From assembly GCA_016463225.1 (NCBI GenBank), contig JAEMRT010000006.1:67779-131778 (forward strand): 64,000 nt of DNA. Direction: 5' to 3'. Shown piece after piece: positions 1-9,631 of this stretch. How positions within the stretch are numbered: position 1 is the stretch's first letter; every line of letters begins with the position of its first letter. Source of the stretch: Sphingopyxis sp. (GTDB taxonomy: Bacteria > Pseudomonadota > Alphaproteobacteria > Sphingomonadales > Sphingomonadaceae). The notes beneath the pieces were generated by a model that did no database searches, was not told the origin of the DNA, and saw nothing but the letters and a program-made list of their open reading frames with translations. A program made the position numbers and the translations under genes.

Positions 1-891
1 CAGCACGATCGGATTGGCGCTGCTCGCAAAGCCTGCGGCGGTGCCGAAATAGGCGTTGTTGGCGAGCCCCGGCAGGATGAACAGGCCGTTGGGATTGGTG
101 CCAACCGCGGTTTGGGGAACCAGCGTCAGCGTGGTCAGGTCGCGCGCATCGGTACGGATCGGGCGCGACTTGAAATAGCTGCCCGACAGGATCACCGACG
201 CCCGGTCCCACGTCTTGCCGACCGTTAGCATGCCGCCAACTTCGGCGCCGTCGCCGCGGCTGGTGACGCCAGCGCGCACCGACCCGCGCAGTCCGTCGAA
301 GGGCTGGACCGTCTTGATGTTGACGACGCCCGCAATCGCGTCAGCGCCGTAGATGGCCGATGCGCCGTCCTTCAAAACCTCGATGCCATCGATCATGCCC
401 TGCGGCAGCGTGTTCAGATCGACGAAATCGCGAAAGCCGCGCTGGCCGACGCCGTCGACCCAGCGATGTCCGTCGACGAGCACGAGCACGCGGTTGCCGC
501 TACCCTCGGCCCCGCCCAGATAGCGCAGGTTGATCGAGCTGGCGCCATAGGACGTCCCCTGCGTCCCGTTGGAATTGAGGCTGACTCCGGCGGACGGGAT
601 TTTCTGGAGCAGGTCGCCGATCGACGAGGTTCCCGACCGGGCGATATCGTCCGAGGTGATCGTCAGCAGCACGCCGACCGAGTCAGCATCCTTGCGGCTG
701 ATCCGCGATCCCGTGACGATGATATCGCCACCGCTATCGGCGTCGGCTTCGGCGTCCGCAGCAGCGACGTCTTCGGCGTCCTGCGCCTGCGCCATGGTCG
801 GCCAGGCCAGCGCGGCCAGGCTGATGCTCGCTGCGGCCGCGAATTTTGCGAGACGGCGTTGCCGGTCGCCGTGAACGATTGCACTGGTCAT
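1..891 (-). CDS. TonB-dependent receptor, N-terminal part (runs off the window)
   Basis: This is an open reading frame without a stop that runs off the left edge; 297 codons are visible. The ATG at 889-891 begins MTSAIVHGDRQRRLAKF, followed by a signal peptide ending at about residue 37 (PTMAQAQ) and an acidic linker. A TonB-box-like strand (DIIVTGSRI) comes next, then a plug domain with LLQKIPSAGVSLNSNG, RVLVLVDGHRWVDG and VEVLKDGASAIYGADAIAGVVNI-type elements. The plug pattern is that of outer-membrane receptors taking up large substrates. The C-terminal barrel lies outside the window, so the substrate is unknown. A purine-rich stretch (GGGGGC) precedes the start. The gene is divergent from the CapA-like gene across about 150 bp. 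Confidence 0.9.
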   Translation of the reverse strand, partial: MTSAIVHGDRQRRLAKFAAAASISLAALAWPTMAQAQDAEDVAAADAEADADSGGDIIVTGSRISRKDADSVGVLLTITSDDIARSGTSSIGDLLQKIPSAGVSLNSNGTQGTSYGASSINLRYLGGAEGSGNRVLVLVDGHRWVDGVGQRGFRDFVDLNTLPQGMIDGIEVLKDGASAIYGADAIAGVVNIKTVQPFDGLRGSVRAGVTSRGDGAEVGGMLTVGKTWDRASVILSGSYFKSRPIRTDARDLTTLTLVPQTAVGTNPNGLFILPGLANNAYFGTAAGFASSANPIVL

Positions 892-954
892 CGATAAGCC
901 CCCAAATTTGTGATGTCCCGACCAGCTTAGAGCGAAGTGCGACGCGGAAAAATA

Positions 955-981
955 TTATGACACTCCGTGATGCTATCATAA
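955..981. promoter_or_regulatory. Inverted repeat in the TonB receptor / CapA divergent promoter
   Basis: TTATGA (955-960) and its reverse complement TCATAA (976-981) are separated by 15 bases in an AT-rich island between the two divergent starts. The layout suits an operator or overlapping promoter elements. No regulator is encoded next to it, so function is inferred. Confidence 0.3.
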
Positions 982-2291: not shown

Positions 2292-3314
2292 TCACCCTTT
2301 CGTCACCTCGACAACAGTCGCCCCGTTCGACCTTTCGCTGGTTCGAAATCCAACGCCGGTAAACCTATCGATCAATGCCGCCGCAGTCAGCGTGTGCTGG
2401 CTCAGTTTTACCGTGGTAAATGCACCCCGCCGCGCAATGGCAAAGGGCAGTAGCAGTTGATCCTGCAAATAGGGGCCGGCGAAAGCCTCGCAGGCGAGGT
2501 AGCCTGCCATACGCTTGGCCGCCGTCTTAGCAAGGCGCTCCGCCGGGACGCCGATCTTGCCGAACGCTGAGATGATCTCGGTGACGTTCTCGAAAGCCGC
2601 CTCAAGCAGCAGCGCGTTGCCCGGCCCGTGGTCGGCAGGAAGCTGGCGCGTTGCGAAGGCATCGTCGGGCCAGTCAGCCAAAACCTTGCGCGCGCTTTTC
2701 AGCTCGCGGTCGGCTACATCGAAGGGGATGCCGGCGACAATCGCCGTCGCTTGTACGCTGCGCAGCGCCCCGCGATCGATGCAGTCGACCGGACGAAGCG
2801 GCGCGGGAGCAATATCGACCTCAATCCGGCCGCCGCCCCGCGGGAAAAAGCCGTGGCGGATCAGCCGCGCCGACACGGCCGGACCCATGCGGTTGACCAC
2901 CGGCAGCAGCGTGCGTTCGAGGAATTCGAACGGCGGGGCAGCCATCGCATGCGTTCCGCCCTCGATGACGAGACGCGACGGAGCGTCGGCCAGCATCAGC
3001 GGCACGAGGATCGTCTGGAGAACCAGTCCGGTGCTGCCCGCCGTGCCCACCGCGAAATGATAGTCGCCGGGCGTCACGCGACCGGGGCGGAAGGAAATGC
3101 TGTTCGATCCGACGGCCAGCCCGCTGCATTCGGCCGCGCCGATCACGCACGCCGCTTCGATCGCGGTCACATGCTGGCGCATGAGCCCCGGCTTCTCGCG
3201 CCCGCGCCGGATGTTTTCGATCGTGAAGGGCTCGCCGGTCAGCAGCGAAAGCGCGCAAGCATAGCGCAGCACCTGTCCCCCGCCTTCGCCTTCAGAGCCG
3301 TCGATGATGATCAT
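2292..3314 (-). CDS. rtcA: RNA 3'-terminal phosphate cyclase
   Basis: RtcA converts RNA 3'-phosphate ends to 2',3'-cyclic phosphates using ATP through a covalent histidine-AMP. At 340 residues it has the normal family length. The N-terminus carries the hallmark DGSEGEGGGQVLRYA, followed by IRRGREKPGLMRQH, HGFFPRGGGRI near residue 155 and SQHTLTAAAL near 305, which contains the expected catalytic histidine. Its ATG overlaps the stop of the upstream nucleotidyltransferase by four bases (ATGA at 3311-3314), so the two are translationally coupled. It is the last gene of the sigma-54-controlled RNA-repair operon. Confidence 0.96.
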   Translation of the reverse strand: MIIIDGSEGEGGGQVLRYACALSLLTGEPFTIENIRRGREKPGLMRQHVTAIEAACVIGAAECSGLAVGSNSISFRPGRVTPGDYHFAVGTAGSTGLVLQTILVPLMLADAPSRLVIEGGTHAMAAPPFEFLERTLLPVVNRMGPAVSARLIRHGFFPRGGGRIEVDIAPAPLRPVDCIDRGALRSVQATAIVAGIPFDVADRELKSARKVLADWPDDAFATRQLPADHGPGNALLLEAAFENVTEIISAFGKIGVPAERLAKTAAKRMAGYLACEAFAGPYLQDQLLLPFAIARRGAFTTVKLSQHTLTAAALIDRFTGVGFRTSERSNGATVVEVTKG

Positions 3315-4093
3315 TCTTCGTCTACCAGTTCCAGAAACAAGTCGTTTGCGTCTGCCGCAAAAGCTTCGATTGGCGGTCGCGCCGGCACCTCGCCGGCACG
3401 CGCCAACTCGTCCGCGATCAGCGCGTCGATCTCGGGCACGCGTGCGATCGGTCCCGCCTCGCGCGTGTCCGCCTTCATCGCCACCAGCTGCTCGATCTCT
3501 TCGATGGCCGAAGACGAAAGGTCAGCCTCCGCCATCAGCTGCTGCAACTGCATCGGCGGCCGGCGGGATGGATCGCGCCGCAGTACACGGATCGCCAAGG
3601 CAGGGCGCAGCGCATAGAAATAGCGCTTTACCGCCACTTCGCTCTCATCCTGCAACCAGCGCGCAATCGCGGTCCGGCCAAGCTTGGCATAATGCAGCGC
3701 AAAACCATTCGGATCGAAGTGGCGGTCCTTCAGTTCAGCCATCCGCGCGATCACGGGATGGGCATTGCGATACTCGATCGGCGATCCGATCCATTCGGAG
3801 AGCACCGAATTGTTGCGCAGCATTAACCCCAGCGCCTTGCGGATATCCCAGCCGTTCAAGTCGATCTCGTCGACGATCGGCCGCTTGATCACGTCACGCA
3901 CCGGGCTGAGCGCCAGATAGTCGCGGCGCGGCCGGACATAGAGAAAGCGCACGTCATAATCGCTGTCGGGCGACGGGAAACCCCACGCCCGCGACCCCGA
4001 TTCGATCGCGAGCAACAGGCGCACGCTGTCCTCCGCCTCGACGGCGGACAGGCGGGTTTCGATTTCGCGGCGCACGGAAGCCCCAATGGTCAT
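3311..4093 (-). CDS. RlaP-like nucleotidyltransferase of the RNA-repair operon
   Basis: This 260-residue protein carries the polymerase-beta-type nucleotidyltransferase signature GSRAWGFPSPDSDYDVRF near residues 33-50, with two acidic metal ligands (SDYD). The length and the all-helical C-terminal half fit the family called RlaP (RNA ligase/Pnkp-associated, DNA polymerase beta-like), which is often found near RNA repair genes. The start at 4093 is set by an ATGA overlap (4090-4093) with the preceding gene; an upstream in-frame ATG at 4303 would force a 214-base overlap. In this operon it may add nucleotides to, or modify, damaged RNA ends. That role is inference from family and context. Confidence 0.85.
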   Translation of the reverse strand: MTIGASVRREIETRLSAVEAEDSVRLLLAIESGSRAWGFPSPDSDYDVRFLYVRPRRDYLALSPVRDVIKRPIVDEIDLNGWDIRKALGLMLRNNSVLSEWIGSPIEYRNAHPVIARMAELKDRHFDPNGFALHYAKLGRTAIARWLQDESEVAVKRYFYALRPALAIRVLRRDPSRRPPMQLQQLMAEADLSSSAIEEIEQLVAMKADTREAGPIARVPEIDALIADELARAGEVPARPPIEAFAADANDLFLELVDEE

Positions 4094-4512
4094 GTCTCCA
4101 ACTTTCTCAATTCCGTTCCATCGGGATCCGCGATGAACAAATAAGGTGTCCAGCAATCGGTCATCTTCGTGCCAATCTCTGCCTTGCAGGATTTGCAACG
4201 AATATTCGGGCCACCACATCCGGAAAGGCCACAGCATCCGCCGAGACGGCGAGAATCCCCGACCAACTCGGTAAAGGCCTCGACGTCGTCGGGATTGGTC
4301 CAAATCTGCGCTACGAAATCGAGCGAATTGGGTTCGTCGAACGATGTGATGAATGGCTTATCGGATTTATAGGCCGTACCATGATCGGTCACCGGCTGCT
4401 GGTCGGCAAGCGTCGGCGCTTCGACCGCCGGATCCTTCGTCGAAAGAAAATTCAATTCATTCGACAATGGCGCGCCGCAAGTTGTGCAAAATAATTGGCC
4501 CTTCATCGTCAT
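4090..4512 (-). CDS. Small cysteine-rich zinc-ribbon protein of unknown function
   Basis: This is a 140-residue protein of no named family that I recognise. It begins FCTTCGAP (CxxC), and a second cysteine cluster runs from residue 93 to 109: GGCCGLSGCGGPNIRCKSCKAEIG. The two pairs look like separate metal-binding knuckles flanking a roughly 70-residue cysteine-free segment (FDEPNSLDFVAQIWTNPDDVEAF). The C-terminus (CWTPYLFIADPDGTELRKLE) is compact. It sits between rtcB (25-base gap) and the nucleotidyltransferase (ATGA overlap), so it is surely co-transcribed with RNA repair genes. It could bind RNA or bridge proteins; that is only context. The first ATG follows GGGGAT, and a second ATG two codons on is possible. 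Confidence 0.75.
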   Translation of the reverse strand: MTMKGQLFCTTCGAPLSNELNFLSTKDPAVEAPTLADQQPVTDHGTAYKSDKPFITSFDEPNSLDFVAQIWTNPDDVEAFTELVGDSRRLGGCCGLSGCGGPNIRCKSCKAEIGTKMTDCWTPYLFIADPDGTELRKLET

Positions 4513-4537: not shown

Positions 4538-5764
4538 TCACCCCTTCACGCACACCACCTGCTTCAGCGTATGAACGATCTCGACGAGGTCGGCCTGCGC
4601 CGCCATCACCGCCTCGATCGGCTTATACGCCTTTGGCGTTTCGTCGATGACGCCTTCGTCCTTACGGCATTCGACGCCAGCGGTGTCAGCGATATGCTCG
4701 TCGAGCGTGACGAGCTTTTTCGCCGCGGTCCGGCTCATAACCCGGCCCGCACCATGGCTGCAGCTATCGAAGGATTCCGGGTTGCCGAGCCCGCGCACGA
4801 TGAAGCTTTTTGCCCCCATCGAGCCCGGGATGATCCCCAGCGTCCCCCTCGCCGCGCGCACCGCCCCCTTGCGGGTGACGAGCACATTCTCGCCGAAGTG
4901 GTTCTCGCGCGTCACATAATTGTGATGACAGTTCACCGCTTCCATCTCGGCCTCGAACGGCTTGGCGATCTGGCGCCGGAGCGCCGCGATCACATTCGCC
5001 ATCATCATCCGCCGGTTCAGCGCCGCAAAATCCTGCGCCCAGCCGACCGCCTCGACATATTCGTCGAAATGGTCGGTCCCTTCGGGGAAGTAAGCAAGAT
5101 CCTCGTCGGGCAGGTTGATGAACCATTTGCGCATGTCCTGCTTCGCCAGTTCGATGAAGTAGGTGCCGATCGCATTGCCGACGCCGCGCGACCCCGAATG
5201 GAGCATCACCCACACCCGCGCATCCTGATCGAGGCAAAGCTCGATAAAATGGTTGCCCGTTCCGAGCGTCCCCAGATGCACGAGGTTGTTGGTGTTCTTC
5301 AGCCGCGGATGCTTCGCGACGAGATGCCCGAAGCGTTCGGCGAGCGTTGCCCACGCGTCGACGATCGCCGGGGGCGGATCGCCCCACGAACCGGTGTCGC
5401 GCTTGCCGCGCCCGACCGAGCGGCCGTGCGGCACCGCCTGCTCGATCGCACTGCGGATGCCTTCCAGCGTATCGGGCAGGTCGTGCGCCATCAGTGAGGT
5501 GCGCGCCGCCATCATGCCGCAGCCGATGTCGACGCCGACCGCAGCCGGGATCACCGCACCCTTGGTCGGGATCACCGATCCGACGGTCGCGCCAAGGCCG
5601 ACATGCACGTCGGGCATCGCCGCGACATGCTTGAACACGAACGGCATCCGCGCGGCCTTCGCAAGCTGCGCGCGGGCGCCATCTTCGACCGGGACGCCGC
5701 GCGTCCACATCTTGACCGGGCGTCCGCCCTCGACATTGAGCACTTCGTAAGTCGTCTGGGTCAT
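4538..5764 (-). CDS. rtcB: RNA-splicing ligase RtcB (3'-phosphate/5'-OH RNA ligase)
   Basis: RtcB joins RNA 2',3'-cyclic-phosphate or 3'-phosphate ends to 5'-hydroxyl ends, using GTP and Mn2+ through a histidine-GMP intermediate. The 408-residue protein shows the family set in order: MPDVHVGLGATVG, AVGVDIGCGM with the metal-binding Asp and Cys, GTLGTGNHFIEL, MLHSGSRGVGN, NCHHNY, GIIPGSMGAKSF and CSHGAGRVMSR, which carries the guanylylated histidine. It ends near KQVVCVKG. The start at 5764 follows AAGGAGGTCAGCG; an ATG seven codons upstream lies within this ribosome-binding sequence and is rejected. The coding region begins 28 bases after the third Y-RNA-like unit. Confidence 0.97.
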   Translation of the reverse strand: MTQTTYEVLNVEGGRPVKMWTRGVPVEDGARAQLAKAARMPFVFKHVAAMPDVHVGLGATVGSVIPTKGAVIPAAVGVDIGCGMMAARTSLMAHDLPDTLEGIRSAIEQAVPHGRSVGRGKRDTGSWGDPPPAIVDAWATLAERFGHLVAKHPRLKNTNNLVHLGTLGTGNHFIELCLDQDARVWVMLHSGSRGVGNAIGTYFIELAKQDMRKWFINLPDEDLAYFPEGTDHFDEYVEAVGWAQDFAALNRRMMMANVIAALRRQIAKPFEAEMEAVNCHHNYVTRENHFGENVLVTRKGAVRAARGTLGIIPGSMGAKSFIVRGLGNPESFDSCSHGAGRVMSRTAAKKLVTLDEHIADTAGVECRKDEGVIDETPKAYKPIEAVMAAQADLVEIVHTLKQVVCVKG

Positions 5765-5792
5765 CGCTGACCTCCTTCTCTTCATTCATAGG

Positions 5793-5896
5793 TGCCGGCG
5801 ACGAGTTTTGGCGAGACATTCCGGATTTCTCCGGCGCGGATTCGAACCGCTAGCCTTTCGGCCTACCCGATGTAGTCCCACCGGCATTCGCCAGCA
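5793..5896 (-). ncRNA. Y-RNA-like ncRNA, unit 3 (short, no D arm)
   Basis: This is the third and shortest tandem unit (about 104 nt). Its outer helix pairs 5896-5888 with 5801-5793 (nine pairs including one G-U). It keeps the shared 5' core GGCGAATGCCGG plus GGACTACAT and the shared 3' core AATGTCT plus CTCGTCGCC. Inside is a hairpin near 5865-5851, resembling a variable arm, then a T arm (stem 5850-5847 with 5839-5836, loop TTCGAAT). A 5-bp helix capped by GAAA follows (CCGGA 5834-5830, TCCGG 5825-5821). No D arm follows, unlike units 1 and 2. It is probably excised from, or transcribed with, the rsr-rtcB message. The ends given are the outermost base pairs, not mapped termini. Confidence 0.7.
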
Positions 5897-5906
5897 TGTT
5901 TGATAG

Positions 5907-6042
5907 AGGGTCACGGCGACGAGGATTGAAAAGACATTCGTGCTCTACCAGACTGAGCTACCGCTCGTTTCCGACCGGGCGGGATTCGAACCCGCGACAC
6001 CGACATTATCAATGTAGTCCTTCCGGCATTCGCCGTGATCCT
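5907..6042 (-). ncRNA. Y-RNA-like ncRNA, unit 2 (permuted tRNA module, GAAA cap)
   Basis: This second unit (about 136 nt) is closed by a helix between 6042-6030 and 5919-5907 (13 positions, one mismatch). The internal module is a tRNA in permuted order. A T arm comes first (stem 5995-5991 with 5983-5979, loop TTCGAAT). The acceptor 3' strand CCGGTCG (5978-5972), a GAAA tetraloop (5971-5968) and the acceptor 5' strand CGAGCGG (5967-5961; six of seven pairs) follow. Then come TA and a D arm (GCTC 5958-5955 with GAGC 5945-5942). The place of the anticodon arm is taken by the ACAT/ATGT helix leading into the Rsr-type stem. The tetraloop replaces the free 3' end, so no charging or CCA end is possible. 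Ends are inferred from pairing. Confidence 0.78.
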
Positions 6043-6056
6043 GTTGGCTCTTCATT

Positions 6057-6218
6057 CGAAGTGTCACGGCGACGAGGTTTAGCAAAGACATTGCCCCTAA
6101 GGGCGCCGCTCTATCCGCTAAGCTACAGGCCCGCATCATGGTGGACCCGGCGGGATTCGAACCCGCGCCTGCATCGTGACAGGATGTAGTCCTTCCCGGC
6201 ATTCGCCGTGACACTTCG
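6057..6218 (-). ncRNA. Y-RNA-like ncRNA, unit 1 (YrlA-type, complete permuted tRNA module)
   Basis: The first unit starts three bases after the rsr stop codon and spans about 162 nt. A perfect 16-bp helix (6218-6203 with 6072-6057) closes it. The conserved GGCGAATGCCGG and CTCGTCGCC strands resemble the Rsr-binding stem of bacterial Y RNAs. Within it are a T arm (GCGGG 6166-6162 with CCCGC 6154-6150, loop TTCGAAT), acceptor strand CGGGTCC (6149-6143), ACCA (6142-6139), linker TGATGC, acceptor strand GGGCCTG (6132-6126; all seven pairs form, two G-U), TA, and a D arm (GCTT 6123-6120 with GAGC 6111-6108, loop containing GCGGA). A short GCCC-TTAG-GGGC hairpin follows. YrlA RNAs of Salmonella are known tRNA mimics that bind Rsr; this matches that class. 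Confidence 0.82.
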
Positions 6219-6221
6219 TAG

Positions 6222-7769
6222 TCATACCTCCACTTCGTTGACGATCTGGACCCAGTCGCGCGTTTCGCCAGCAGCGAAGCGCGCCATTGCGCCAAAGACC
6301 GCGTCGGTGAAACCACCGACATTCATGATATCCTTCCGGTCCCTGGCCTGCGTGGTGCCATAGGGCTGGATGTCGATGCAGATCAGCTTCGCGCCCGGGT
6401 TACGGACCTTCAGCTTCGTCCACTCGTTCATCGTCGCCGTGGCGCCACGCCGGGTCGGATCGACCCAGCTTTCATTGTCCGAAACGATCACAACGGTATC
6501 GACCTTCGCGCGCTCGGCGTTGAGCCGGGCGAGCGGAGCCGAGACATTTGTCCCGCCGCCGCCGATCGCTGCCAGCCGCGCGGCGTTGACCGCAAGGCGT
6601 GCCTTGGGATCGAGCGCCATGTCGACGACATCGACTTCGAACGGCATCACCCGCGCCGACCGGTTGGTGCGCAGCATCGCCGCCGCGACCAGCGCCGCGA
6701 TGTCGATGCAGCGGACCTTCGAGGTCGCGCCCTTGCGGTGGCCGGTCGCTGCCGAGCCCATCGAGCCCGACACGTCCGGACAGACAATGATGTTGCCCGC
6801 CAGCACCGGAACCGTTGCAAGCGACAGTTCGAGTGCCTTTTCGAGCGATGCCTGGACCGCTAGCGGAACCGCGTCGCCGACCTGATCGAGCGCGATCATC
6901 AGGTGATAGGGCGCGGGCTTGATCTTCGCGATCGCCTCCGCATCCGCCAGCCGTGCCGCGACCGCTTCGGTCACCCCCGCCACGTCGAACGCACCATTGC
7001 GCGCCAGCGTGTTGAGGTTCATGCGCAGCGCCTGCCAGCCCATGCGAACCGCAAGATCGCCCCACTGTTCCGCCGAGAGCGGAAATGCGGTCAGCCATTC
7101 GAACGGCACCGGGGGGAGCGGCCCCGAGGGGTCGCGCTTCCAGGCTTCGAACGCTGCGATCTCTGCCGGCAGCGCAGCGACTTCATAGGGCTTGCCGATC
7201 AGCCAGCCGTAGAAGGCGCGTCGCTCCGCCGAAGCCGGCGCCGGGTGGACCATGCGAACGATGTCGGCGAGGCTCGGGTCGTTGCCCGTCGCTGCCGTCA
7301 TCAACTGGCGCATCGAAGCCGTTTCCAGCCATTGACGCACCAGCCGCTTCGGCCGCGAGCCGAGCGAACGGCGCCCGATCTGGCCCGACCGCATGATCTG
7401 CACGAAATTGCGCAGCATGCGGCCGTTATCGATCACGCGGCCGAATACCGGCACGGCGAGATCGGGATCGGCGACGGTCAGATAAGCGGCGAGCAGCGCC
7501 GGCATATCCTTCATCGCACCCGACTGGCGCGCATAGATCGCCGCCTTGGCAACAAACCCCGGCGACACCGCTTGCGCCGCCGACAGGACATCGGCGAGCT
7601 GCGCGTCGGCGCCCGAATAGAAGCCATCCGACAGCGTGCCGGTCGCGGCCAGCTGTGCAAGCTTCGCTTCGGCGCCATAGGCATAGGCCGCGCCGCCGGC
7701 TTCATTCACCGTGTCGGTGCGCGGCAGGAAGCGCGAGAGCGCCGTGGAAAACAGGGACTTGTTGGCCAT
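6222..7769 (-). CDS. rsr: Rsr, Ro60-like TROVE-domain RNA-binding protein
   Basis: Ro60 orthologues form a HEAT-repeat ring that binds Y RNAs on its outer surface and the 3' ends of damaged or misfolded RNA in the central hole. The 515-residue protein has the TROVE region over about residues 1-320 (for example FVAKAAIYARQSGAMKDMPALLAAYL, then LRNFVQIMRSGQIGRRSLGSRPKRLVRQWL). A von Willebrand A domain follows, with the MIDAS motif DVSGSM at about 332-337. The start at 7769 follows AAGGAG. It is the first gene after the sigma-54 promoter, and the Y-RNA-like units begin right after its stop. Such clustering of rsr, Y RNA, rtcB and rtcA is known from enterobacteria. Confidence 0.95.
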   Translation of the reverse strand: MANKSLFSTALSRFLPRTDTVNEAGGAAYAYGAEAKLAQLAATGTLSDGFYSGADAQLADVLSAAQAVSPGFVAKAAIYARQSGAMKDMPALLAAYLTVADPDLAVPVFGRVIDNGRMLRNFVQIMRSGQIGRRSLGSRPKRLVRQWLETASMRQLMTAATGNDPSLADIVRMVHPAPASAERRAFYGWLIGKPYEVAALPAEIAAFEAWKRDPSGPLPPVPFEWLTAFPLSAEQWGDLAVRMGWQALRMNLNTLARNGAFDVAGVTEAVAARLADAEAIAKIKPAPYHLMIALDQVGDAVPLAVQASLEKALELSLATVPVLAGNIIVCPDVSGSMGSAATGHRKGATSKVRCIDIAALVAAAMLRTNRSARVMPFEVDVVDMALDPKARLAVNAARLAAIGGGGTNVSAPLARLNAERAKVDTVVIVSDNESWVDPTRRGATATMNEWTKLKVRNPGAKLICIDIQPYGTTQARDRKDIMNVGGFTDAVFGAMARFAAGETRDWVQIVNEVEV

Positions 7770-7876
7770 CGTCCAACTCCTTCGAAATCATTCCGGATCC
7801 TCGGGGGCGGCCAGCCCATTCCGGCCGCCCCTTCGTTCCACTGTGCCGGGAGACGTGAGCCCCGACGCAAACATCG

Positions 7877-7893
7877 TTGCAGAAGACGTGCCA
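7877..7893 (-). promoter_or_regulatory. Sigma-54 (RpoN) promoter of the RNA-repair operon
   Basis: On the minus strand the sequence TGGCACGTCTTCTGCAA matches the -24/-12 consensus (TGGCAC, then TTGC). The GG and GC dinucleotides are exactly ten bases apart, as sigma-54 requires. Only one base of the -12 box differs (CTGC for TTGC). Transcription should start near 7867, giving a leader of roughly 98 bases before the rsr ATG. It is the expected target of the adjacent RtcR. Confidence 0.88.
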
Positions 7894-7958: not shown

Positions 7959-8035
7959 CTTGAGATGTGGAAACGAGGCGTTAGACCTATATGATTATCT
8001 TGTATCGTAATTTATCCTAGAATATAAGTGTGATC

Positions 8036-9631
8036 ATGAAGCCCACTACCGTCATCGGATTTCTCGGCTCGACTCTCGATGCCGCCAAATTCGGACCCTC
8101 GCGCTGGAACAAGTGGCGGCCGACGGTCAGCATCTGCATGCAGGAAGACTTGCGGGTCGATCGCTTCATCCTGCTGCACGGCCGCTATCACAGCCGTCTC
8201 GCTGAATATGTGGCCGATGATATCCGTGACATATCGCCCGAGACTGAGGTCGTCCCACAACTCCTCGACTTCGACGACGCCTGGGATTTCGAGGAAGTTT
8301 ATGGAAAGCTGCTCGACTTCGCGCGCGCCTTTCCCTTCGACCCCGACAATCAAGATTATCTGGTCCACATCACGACCGGCACCCATGTCGCGCAAATTTG
8401 CCTCTTTCTCCTGACTGAGGCGCGCTATCTGCCCGGGCGGCTGCTCCAGACCCAGCCGCAGCGTGGCGCACCGCAGCCGATCGGGACGTGGAGCGCCATC
8501 GACCTCGACCTGTCGCGTTACGACAGCATCGCGACGCGCTTTGCCGAGGCGAGCGCCGAGAGCACGAGCTTTCTGAAAAGCGGCATCGAGACGCGCAATG
8601 CCGCCTTCAACCGAATGATCGAGGAGATTGAGCAGGTCGCGGTACGCAGCCGCGCGCCGATCCTGCTGATGGGTCCGACCGGCGCCGGCAAGAGCCAGCT
8701 CTCGCGCAAGATTTACGAGCTCAAGAAGCTGCGCCACCAGATCGCGGGCCCTTTCGTCGAAGTTAATTGCGCGACGTTGAAGGGCGACAGCGCGATGTCG
8801 GCGCTGTTCGGCCACCGCAAGGGCGCTTTTACCGGCGCGGCACAGGATCGCCCCGGCCTGCTCAAGTCGGCCGACAAGGGGTTGCTATTCCTCGATGAAA
8901 TTGGCGAGCTTGGCCTCGACGAGCAGGCGATGATCCTGCGCGCGATCGAGGAAGGACGCTTCCTTCCCGTGGGCGCCGACAGCGAAGCGAAGAGCGAATT
9001 CCAGCTGATCGCCGGCACCAACCGCGACCTCGTCCGCGAGGTTGTCGCCGGTCGCTTCCGCGAAGATCTGTTCGCTCGCCTCAACCTGTGGACCTTCAGC
9101 CTGCCGGGGCTTGCGGCGCGCCGCGAGGATATCGCCCCTAATCTCGACTACGAGCTGGAGCGCTTCGCCGAACGCGAAGGGGCACGGGTCACCTTCAACA
9201 AGGAGGCGCGCGACAAATTTTTGAGCTTTGCCGAGAACTCGGCCGCGCTGTGGAAAGGCAATTTCCGCGACCTTGCCGCCAGCGTCACCCGCATGGCAAC
9301 GCTCAGCGCGACAGGGCGCATCGATTCCGATGCGGTCGCCCTCGAGACGGGCAGGCTGCGGTCGCTTTGGTCGACCGACGATGCTCAGGGCGATGCGCTC
9401 GACCATTTGCTATCGTCCGACCAGCTCAAACGGATCGATCCCTTCGATCGGGTTCAGCTCGGCTATGTTGTCGATATCTGTCGTCAGAGCGCTAGCCTTT
9501 CGGCGGCGGGGCGTTCGCTGTTTTCGGCGTCGCGCGAAGAGCGTCGATCAACCAACGATGCGGACCGGTTGCGGAAATATCTCGCGCGCTTCGATCTCGA
9601 CTGGAGCATTGTCACGGCAAGCAGCGATTAA
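8036..9631 (+). CDS. rtcR: RtcR, sigma-54-dependent activator of RNA repair
   Basis: RtcR is a bacterial enhancer-binding protein whose N-terminal CARF-type domain senses RNA fragments with cyclic-phosphate ends and whose AAA+ domain opens sigma-54 promoters. The 531-residue sequence has the sensor domain at about 1-180 (SRWNKWRPTV, DYLVHITTGTHVAQICLFLL). The AAA+ core has Walker A GPTGAGKS near 213, the sigma-54 contact loop GAFTGA near 260, and Walker B LLFLDEIGEL near 280. The C-terminal helix-turn-helix region has SLSAAGRSLF and DADRLRKYLARF. The ATG at 8036 aligns with the usual N-terminus (MKPTTVIGFLG); a GTG two codons earlier is possible. No strong ribosome-binding site is visible, so expression may be low. 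Confidence 0.95.
   Translation: MKPTTVIGFLGSTLDAAKFGPSRWNKWRPTVSICMQEDLRVDRFILLHGRYHSRLAEYVADDIRDISPETEVVPQLLDFDDAWDFEEVYGKLLDFARAFPFDPDNQDYLVHITTGTHVAQICLFLLTEARYLPGRLLQTQPQRGAPQPIGTWSAIDLDLSRYDSIATRFAEASAESTSFLKSGIETRNAAFNRMIEEIEQVAVRSRAPILLMGPTGAGKSQLSRKIYELKKLRHQIAGPFVEVNCATLKGDSAMSALFGHRKGAFTGAAQDRPGLLKSADKGLLFLDEIGELGLDEQAMILRAIEEGRFLPVGADSEAKSEFQLIAGTNRDLVREVVAGRFREDLFARLNLWTFSLPGLAARREDIAPNLDYELERFAEREGARVTFNKEARDKFLSFAENSAALWKGNFRDLAASVTRMATLSATGRIDSDAVALETGRLRSLWSTDDAQGDALDHLLSSDQLKRIDPFDRVQLGYVVDICRQSASLSAAGRSLFSASREERRSTNDADRLRKYLARFDLDWSIVTASSD

Follow-up and report, generated by a model that had tools for sequence, protein, structure and literature searches.

The closest described relatives of the RNAs analysed here are the YrlA RNAs (Rfam RF02553), known from the Salmonella rsr-yrlBA-rtcBA operon and from structure 6CU1, whose fold is described as permuted in the available text of PMC11472068. 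With YrlA they share a basal Y stem, a place beside rsr in an operon with RtcR, RtcB and RtcA, and a circularly permuted domain of T arm, acceptor and D arm. Unlike YrlA, they stand in rows of 2-6 diverged units, include an additional class opened in the D loop, and in many cases carry anticodon-type hairpins. Plain Y RNAs of the YrlB kind have a Y stem without a tRNA body, as do 27 units of the arrays ('noT'), which we take to be YrlB-like; unlike plain RNAs of that kind, 9 of these 27 bear an exact real-tRNA anticodon loop. Permuted (two-piece) tmRNA (RF04321) and permuted tRNA genes likewise encode the 3' half ahead of the 5' half, and unit A of the present array resembles them in the ACCA of its acceptor loop, whereas here the open end is joined to the Y stem. 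The array is a variant of the YrlA-type Y RNAs with an ordinary copy number; D-loop opening and anticodon display are new as far as the literature searched shows, since no title or abstract returned by the search dealt with Y RNAs that are D-loop-opened or carry anticodons, a negative that does not establish their absence from print. Chen 2014 is said to give, in its abstract, at least one Y RNA with a tRNA-like domain per species, so that several Y RNAs per species are probably known already.

The window, a stretch of 64,000 nucleotides from Sphingopyxis sp., contains a divergent rtcR, a predicted sigma-54-type site before rsr, and rtcB and rtcA, which together point to an RtcR-controlled RNA-repair operon, and the Y-RNA units directly adjoin the Rsr gene (Table 1). 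In its strict form, TGGCAY-N6-TGC, the sigma-54-type site occurs in 75 of the 80 rtcR-rsr gaps from the window and its relatives and in 0 of 80 on the reverse strand; a looser form is found in 79 of 80. Besides the match given in Table 1, the rsr product has a TROVE match of 21.4 bits, just below the Pfam cut-off of 23.

Table 1. Features of the RNA-repair locus, numbered from the first letter of the window
Feature	Position	Strand	Evidence or detail
rtcR, divergently oriented gene for a sigma-54 activator that has an RtcR regulatory domain	8030..9631	+	Pfam RtcR 272.4 bits, Sigma54_activat 166.5 bits
Predicted sigma-54-type promoter site TGGCACGTCTTCTGCA, upstream of rsr	7878..7893	-	Sequence
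rsr, Ro60 homologue	6222..7769	-	Pfam vWA_Ro60 57.9 bits (cut-off 27.7)
Y-RNA unit A, in which a basal stem carries an anticodon-type hairpin, a T arm, an acceptor followed by ACCA, a D arm and one additional small hairpin	6060..6215	-	
7-nt loop CUGUCAC of unit A	6176..6182	-	Same sequence as the anticodon loop of this genome's tRNA-Asp(GUC)
ACCA of unit A, which follows the acceptor 3' strand (7 nt)	6139..6142	-	Acceptor strands 6143-6149 and 6126-6132
Y-RNA unit B, in which a basal stem carries an anticodon-type hairpin, a T arm, an acceptor hairpin and a D arm	5911..6038	-	
Anticodon-type loop of unit B, UUGAUAA (7 nt, triplet GAU), on a stem of 3 bp	6006..6012	-	
Y-RNA unit C, in which a basal stem carries a reduced insert made up of a T arm, an acceptor-like hairpin and a GAAA-capped hairpin; no D arm	5793..5896	-	
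rtcB, RNA ligase	4538..5785	-	Pfam RtcB 427.1 bits
Small ORF between rtcB and rlaP	4090..4512	-	No Pfam match
rlaP, RNA repair pathway nucleotidyltransferase-like protein	3311..4303	-	Pfam RlaP 253.1 bits
rtcA, RNA 3'-phosphate cyclase	2292..3314	-	Pfam RTC 238.6 bits

Several further features of the locus were recorded. The small ORF encodes 140 amino acids with cysteine pairs, and tblastn (E <= 1e-5) detects relatives in 7 of the 80 rsr loci retrieved, L034, L046, L053, L056, L095 and L100 being among those listed. A leader hairpin, GGGGCGGCC..GGCCGCCCC, lies between rtcR and rsr at 7804-7831 on the minus strand, and its GGAATGGGC-type core is present in 66 of the 80 rtcR-rsr gaps. ARAGORN reports a normal-order tRNA between rtcR and rsr, directly upstream of the latter, in 18 of the 81 loci (for example L066:3405-3482, L061:3408-3480 and L083:3392-3484) and none there in the window; 13 of these are tRNA-Pro(UGG)-like and 2 Trp(CCA)-like, plus others, with an enlarged anticodon arm in L083, a short loop in L078 and apparent remnants in several more loci.

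Judged from the sequence, units A, B and C are paralogous Y-RNA units between rsr and rtcB. The cores GGCGAATGCCGG, GGACTACAT, AATGTCT and CTCGTCGCC, with which a first-pass annotation had defined them, were all located in the three minus-strand units, and predicted folds agree with its closing helices of about 9 to 16 bp; all three have the long basal stem, its 5' and 3' cores being conserved. Its order of T arm, acceptor 3' strand, acceptor 5' strand and D arm holds for units A and B but not for unit C, which lacks a D arm. Overlooked at that stage were the 7-bp acceptor encoded in unit A, followed by ACCA, and the 7-nt anticodon-type loops just 3' of GGACTAC in units A and B. Fold z-scores are -2.76 (A), -2.83 (B) and -2.90 (C). 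Single-sequence folding returns unit C as described, unit B likewise apart from a competing hairpin that replaces the anticodon-type hairpin in its predicted best fold, and unit A in part, the best fold being rare in its own ensemble and different from the centroid. A single parent tRNA for each mimic was considered and set aside: the best local matches among the tRNAs of this genome are scattered, with tRNA-Met(cat) commonest and no result for unit B, and no parent tRNA is therefore claimed.

The first-pass assignment to YrlA-class RNAs stands insofar as Y RNAs of the YrlA type here adjoin the gene of a Ro60 homologue in an RtcR/RtcB/RtcA operon, but the covariance-model search with Y RNA and tRNA models that it had recommended lifts only the middle unit over a cut-off. 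Unit B scores 78 bits with RF02553 (cut-off 69), while unit A (36.3 bits, E 2.7e-6), unit C (36.6 bits, E 2.2e-6) and the sole RF00005 match in the window (26.8 bits, cut-off 29), which spans two units, fall below; a search of the whole genome with RF02553 gives three matches, namely the three units of the window. On these scores only unit B is filed as YrlA, and units A and C are YrlA-like paralogues. Ordinary tRNAs are rejected on that RF00005 score and on the absence of any ARAGORN tRNA prediction in the window, and permuted tmRNA (RF04321) on the score of unit A, 26.8 bits against a cut-off of 47.

Comparison with other genomes covered the best 80 of 525 rsr relatives in named genomes together with the window, 81 loci in all, from Sphingopyxis, Novosphingobium, Sphingomonas and Erythrobacteraceae and, further off, Nitrospirillum, Azospirillum, Zavarzinia and others; the nearest of these best 80 shares 92% Rsr identity. 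Two loci whose contigs end inside rsr (L109, L110) were left out, and the gap of L038 was read to the contig end instead of to rtcB. The 79 readable rsr-rtcB gaps contain 325 units: 2 in 3 loci, 3 in 18, 4 in 28, 5 in 27 and 6 in 3. The core search by which these were found yields 325 units in the 49,140 bp of gap sequence from the 81 loci, 0 when the gaps are read on the opposite strand, 63 in the remaining 1,219,180 bp of locus sequence on both strands, and 1 to 4 in each of five shuffles of the gaps; the arrays of predicted units thus exceed chance. The view that triplication is unusual is accordingly given up, since every readable locus holds a row, and a peculiarity of this one genome is ruled out by rows of units in relatives and in another class. 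Among 398 genomes drawn from the phylum, 10, the present one included, encode Rsr at E <= 1e-20, and rows of Y-like units are visible by eye downstream of the Rsr gene in the nine others, 3 of which belong to another class and 2 of which (L160, L161) resemble loci of the named set (L081, L112). The Rfam model is far less sensitive here, with RF02553 matching 26 of 298 family genomes, 8 of them over the cut-off. Its occurrence in the family is patchy, none of the 6 other same-genus genomes listed being matched.

The points at which the tRNA bodies are opened were assessed with covariance models built from 18 of the 46 tRNAs found in this genome, real tRNAs only, rotated so as to be opened in the D loop (R1), between positions 26 and 27 (R2) or in the anticodon loop (R3). 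At E <= 0.1 these gave 264, 199 and 257 matches, respectively, in 722,290 bases; 26 of the 264 R1 matches lay outside the rsr-rtcB gaps, mostly in tRNA genes or tRNA-like sequences upstream of rsr. Classed by the best-scoring model at no less than 20 bits, 234 of the 325 units fit a model and 91 fit none. The D-loop-opened class comprises 115 units, 95 with a lead of at least 10 bits; 74 units are opened at the junction of D arm and anticodon arm (such a lead in 4) and 45 in the anticodon loop (17), a clean split of these latter two classes being only partly possible, with margins below 10 bits in 70/74 and 28/45. D-loop-opened units are mixed with units opened on the anticodon side in 65 of 79 arrays. 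The window is among the 14 that are not mixed: unit A (51.8, 50.9 and 43.9 bits with R2, R3 and R1) and unit B (63.4, 55.2 and 46.7 bits) score best as junction-opened, and unit C matches none of the three models. Among the loci from the phylum draw, the models matched all 8 that were searched (L161-L168). The Rfam YrlA model, tried on eight loci with 38 units at E <= 0.01, recovered all 14 junction- or anticodon-loop-opened units, 4 of them over the cut-off, 6 of 13 other units, and only 1 of 11 D-loop-opened units, with none of the 11 over the cut-off.

Permuted tRNA genes of red algae give rise to precursors that are matured into working tRNAs, and the units might be treated in the same way, through excision of the Y stem, ligation of the ends by RtcB and a break in the acceptor loop. 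Unit A, whose tRNA parts follow the correct cyclic order and which has ACCA encoded and a genuine anticodon loop, and the RNA ligase gene that adjoins the units would suit such a pathway; the outer anticodon pairs are nevertheless absent, as are NCCA or a normal anticodon loop from most units, and this origin of tRNAs appears highly improbable. A sponge, in which the mimics compete with tRNAs for enzymes such as DusA, TruB or RNase P, so that tRNAs mature more slowly under stress, would agree with the report that YrlA is a substrate of DusA and TruB (PMC8394870, in the part available), with the retention of T loops and D arms and with the 25 units that keep a 7-bp acceptor with NCCA; most units, however, are without NCCA and the reduced ones without a D arm, which leaves it improbable.

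Two side observations concern the mimics themselves. Directly after ACCA, the acceptor loop of unit 3 in L045, L049 and L053 contains a GCGCTAACGCTTCGCTGCGTGAGCGC-like hairpin, so this loop tolerates insertions. Inserts that by eye resemble a D-loop-opened tRNA-Leu with a long variable arm were seen in L162 (near 836-959, minus strand) and in unit 4 of L092.

Structural conservation was evaluated on two alignments made with MAFFT without structure, their rows being representatives under 85% identity. All 19 representatives of the 44 D-loop-opened units with at least 42 bits and a lead of 8 entered the first, in which RNAalifold places a D stem around an anticodon arm, a T arm and an acceptor hairpin atop the Y stem; both sides change in 17 of 35 pairs and 98.0% of cells pair. 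The second holds 19 of 20 junction-opened rows, units A and B included, after units of 165 nt or more and unit 3 of L082 had been dropped; both sides change in 18 of 32 pairs, all 7 acceptor pairs among them, and 97.8% of cells pair. In neither set did any of 500 shuffles equal the real alignment. Slid controls pair 34-52% and 39-46% of cells, respectively, a comparison in which the consensus structures, derived from the same rows, have the advantage. Four D-stem pairs are invariant in the D-loop-opened set, and D-stem covariation is therefore uninformative in that class; the anticodon-type hairpin is missing from the junction-opened consensus because its position shifts between rows. Covariation thus supports both predicted folds, and the first-pass annotation, which had made its helices depend on covariation in related genomes, came through this check. 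Among ten relatives' units folded singly, the complete mimic is missing from the best folds of five (L083_1, L070_1, L059_3, L086_2 and L099_3).

The counts of anticodon-type loops come from related rows and not from independent events. An exact loop was scored where a hairpin of at least 3 bp after GGACTAC carried a 7-nt loop identical to one of 41 real loops of this genome. Such loops occur in 14 of 106 AC-order units (shuffle mean 0.14), in the 9 of 27 plain units mentioned above (0.01), in 3 of 26 T+D5 (0.03), 1 of 51 T-only (0.04) and 0 of 26 D3+T units, and in 2 of 89 DL units (0.04, largest shuffle 2). A T arm is recognised in 73 of the 74 junction-opened units, and 49 of these 73 have an anticodon-type loop on at least 3 bp, with 19 different triplets, GAU and GUC being commonest; A37 is present in 48 of the 49, under a filter that demanded U33 and a purine at 37. 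When aligned to R2 by cmsearch, the loops of units A and B fall on the anticodon-loop columns. The UUGAUAA loop of unit B recurs in L037, L038, L042 and L050; in L033, the nearest relative, UUUUUAA stands in the same frame. Among 41 anticodon-loop-opened units examined, one has an anticodon-type loop, on 2 bp. D-loop-opened units have a 7-nt U33/R37 loop in only 2 of 115 cases; a 4-nt loop replaces the anticodon loop in 62/115 (GNRA 46) by one count and in 39/115 (GNRA 24) by another, and since the two disagree, only the rarity of the 7-nt loops is used. Duplication of YrlA under neutrality or weak selection, accompanied by recurrent drift or by the copying of parts of tRNAs, would produce such diversity without function and would account for a copy number that varies among near relatives (L063 4, L065 5, L066 4, L067 3); the compensatory changes in helices, the 2-6 units in 79/79 readable gaps and the near-constant A37 speak against it, and its probability is slight.

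Our preferred reading, which we hold tentatively and at a little under an even chance, is that the Rsr-held YrlA-type RNAs form a panel of tRNA baits against enzymes that cut or process tRNAs. Salmonella RtcR is activated by tRNA fragments (PMC7790460, in the text available), and RtcR here may sense such fragments and start transcription from the sigma-54 site. Rsr would then hold the unit RNAs through their common basal stem, the RNAs would fold in the cell as predicted, and the baits would divert tRNA-cutting or tRNA-processing enzymes while repair by RtcA and RtcB proceeds. In junction-opened units, a body that closes into the Y stem would display differing anticodon loops; D-loop-opened units would offer a tRNA body with a changed anticodon loop and would therefore bind tRNA enzymes without a normal anticodon to cut. 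We count in favour of this reading the operon with RtcR, RtcB, RtcA, RlaP and a sigma-54-type site, the 234 fits to tRNA models, the exact loops, the 19 triplets, A37 and the covariation, as well as the naming of competition with an anticodon nuclease as one possibility for Salmonella YrlA in the available part of PMC7790460. Against it we count the 91 units without a fit, the outer anticodon pairs lost in junction-opened units, the competing hairpin of unit B, the rare best fold of unit A and the five incomplete folds of relatives; in addition, the varied anticodons could simply reflect which tRNA was copied, and the same part of PMC7790460 describes YrlA itself as uncut in Salmonella and reports no inhibition test.

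The main rival casts the units as tethers or gates: the Y RNA stem would bind Rsr, the tRNA-like domain would recruit PNPase or a different enzyme to the ring, and with several units Rsr would have more than one partner or substrate gate. Such an arrangement is known for Rsr, YrlA and PNPase, YrlA tethering PNPase to Rsr (PMC8394870, with PMC4987338, in the parts available), and the basal stem is conserved across arrays; taken alone, however, it leaves unexplained both the varied triplets of the anticodon loops and the variety of openings inside one array, and we regard it as possible, though on the unlikely side. In our judgement a bait panel best explains the varied loops of one class and the altered loops of the other, with tethering close behind.

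If the units are indeed baits, a broader and more doubtful possibility is that RNA-repair operons hold a fast-changing library of tRNA baits that soaks up whatever anticodon nuclease is attacking the tRNAs of the cell, an RNA-based anti-ribotoxin immunity array in which each Rsr-held Y RNA would present a genuine anticodon loop of its own or else a tRNA body lacking a normal anticodon, the baits arising by the opening of tRNAs at different loops. Arrays of diverged tRNA mimics yield testable predictions as to which nucleases or modifying enzymes each unit binds, and a further one, that the choice of anticodons tracks the local tRNA-cutting toxins. They also constitute a natural series of tRNAs opened at different loops, which may be used to learn how tRNA enzymes recognise their substrate.
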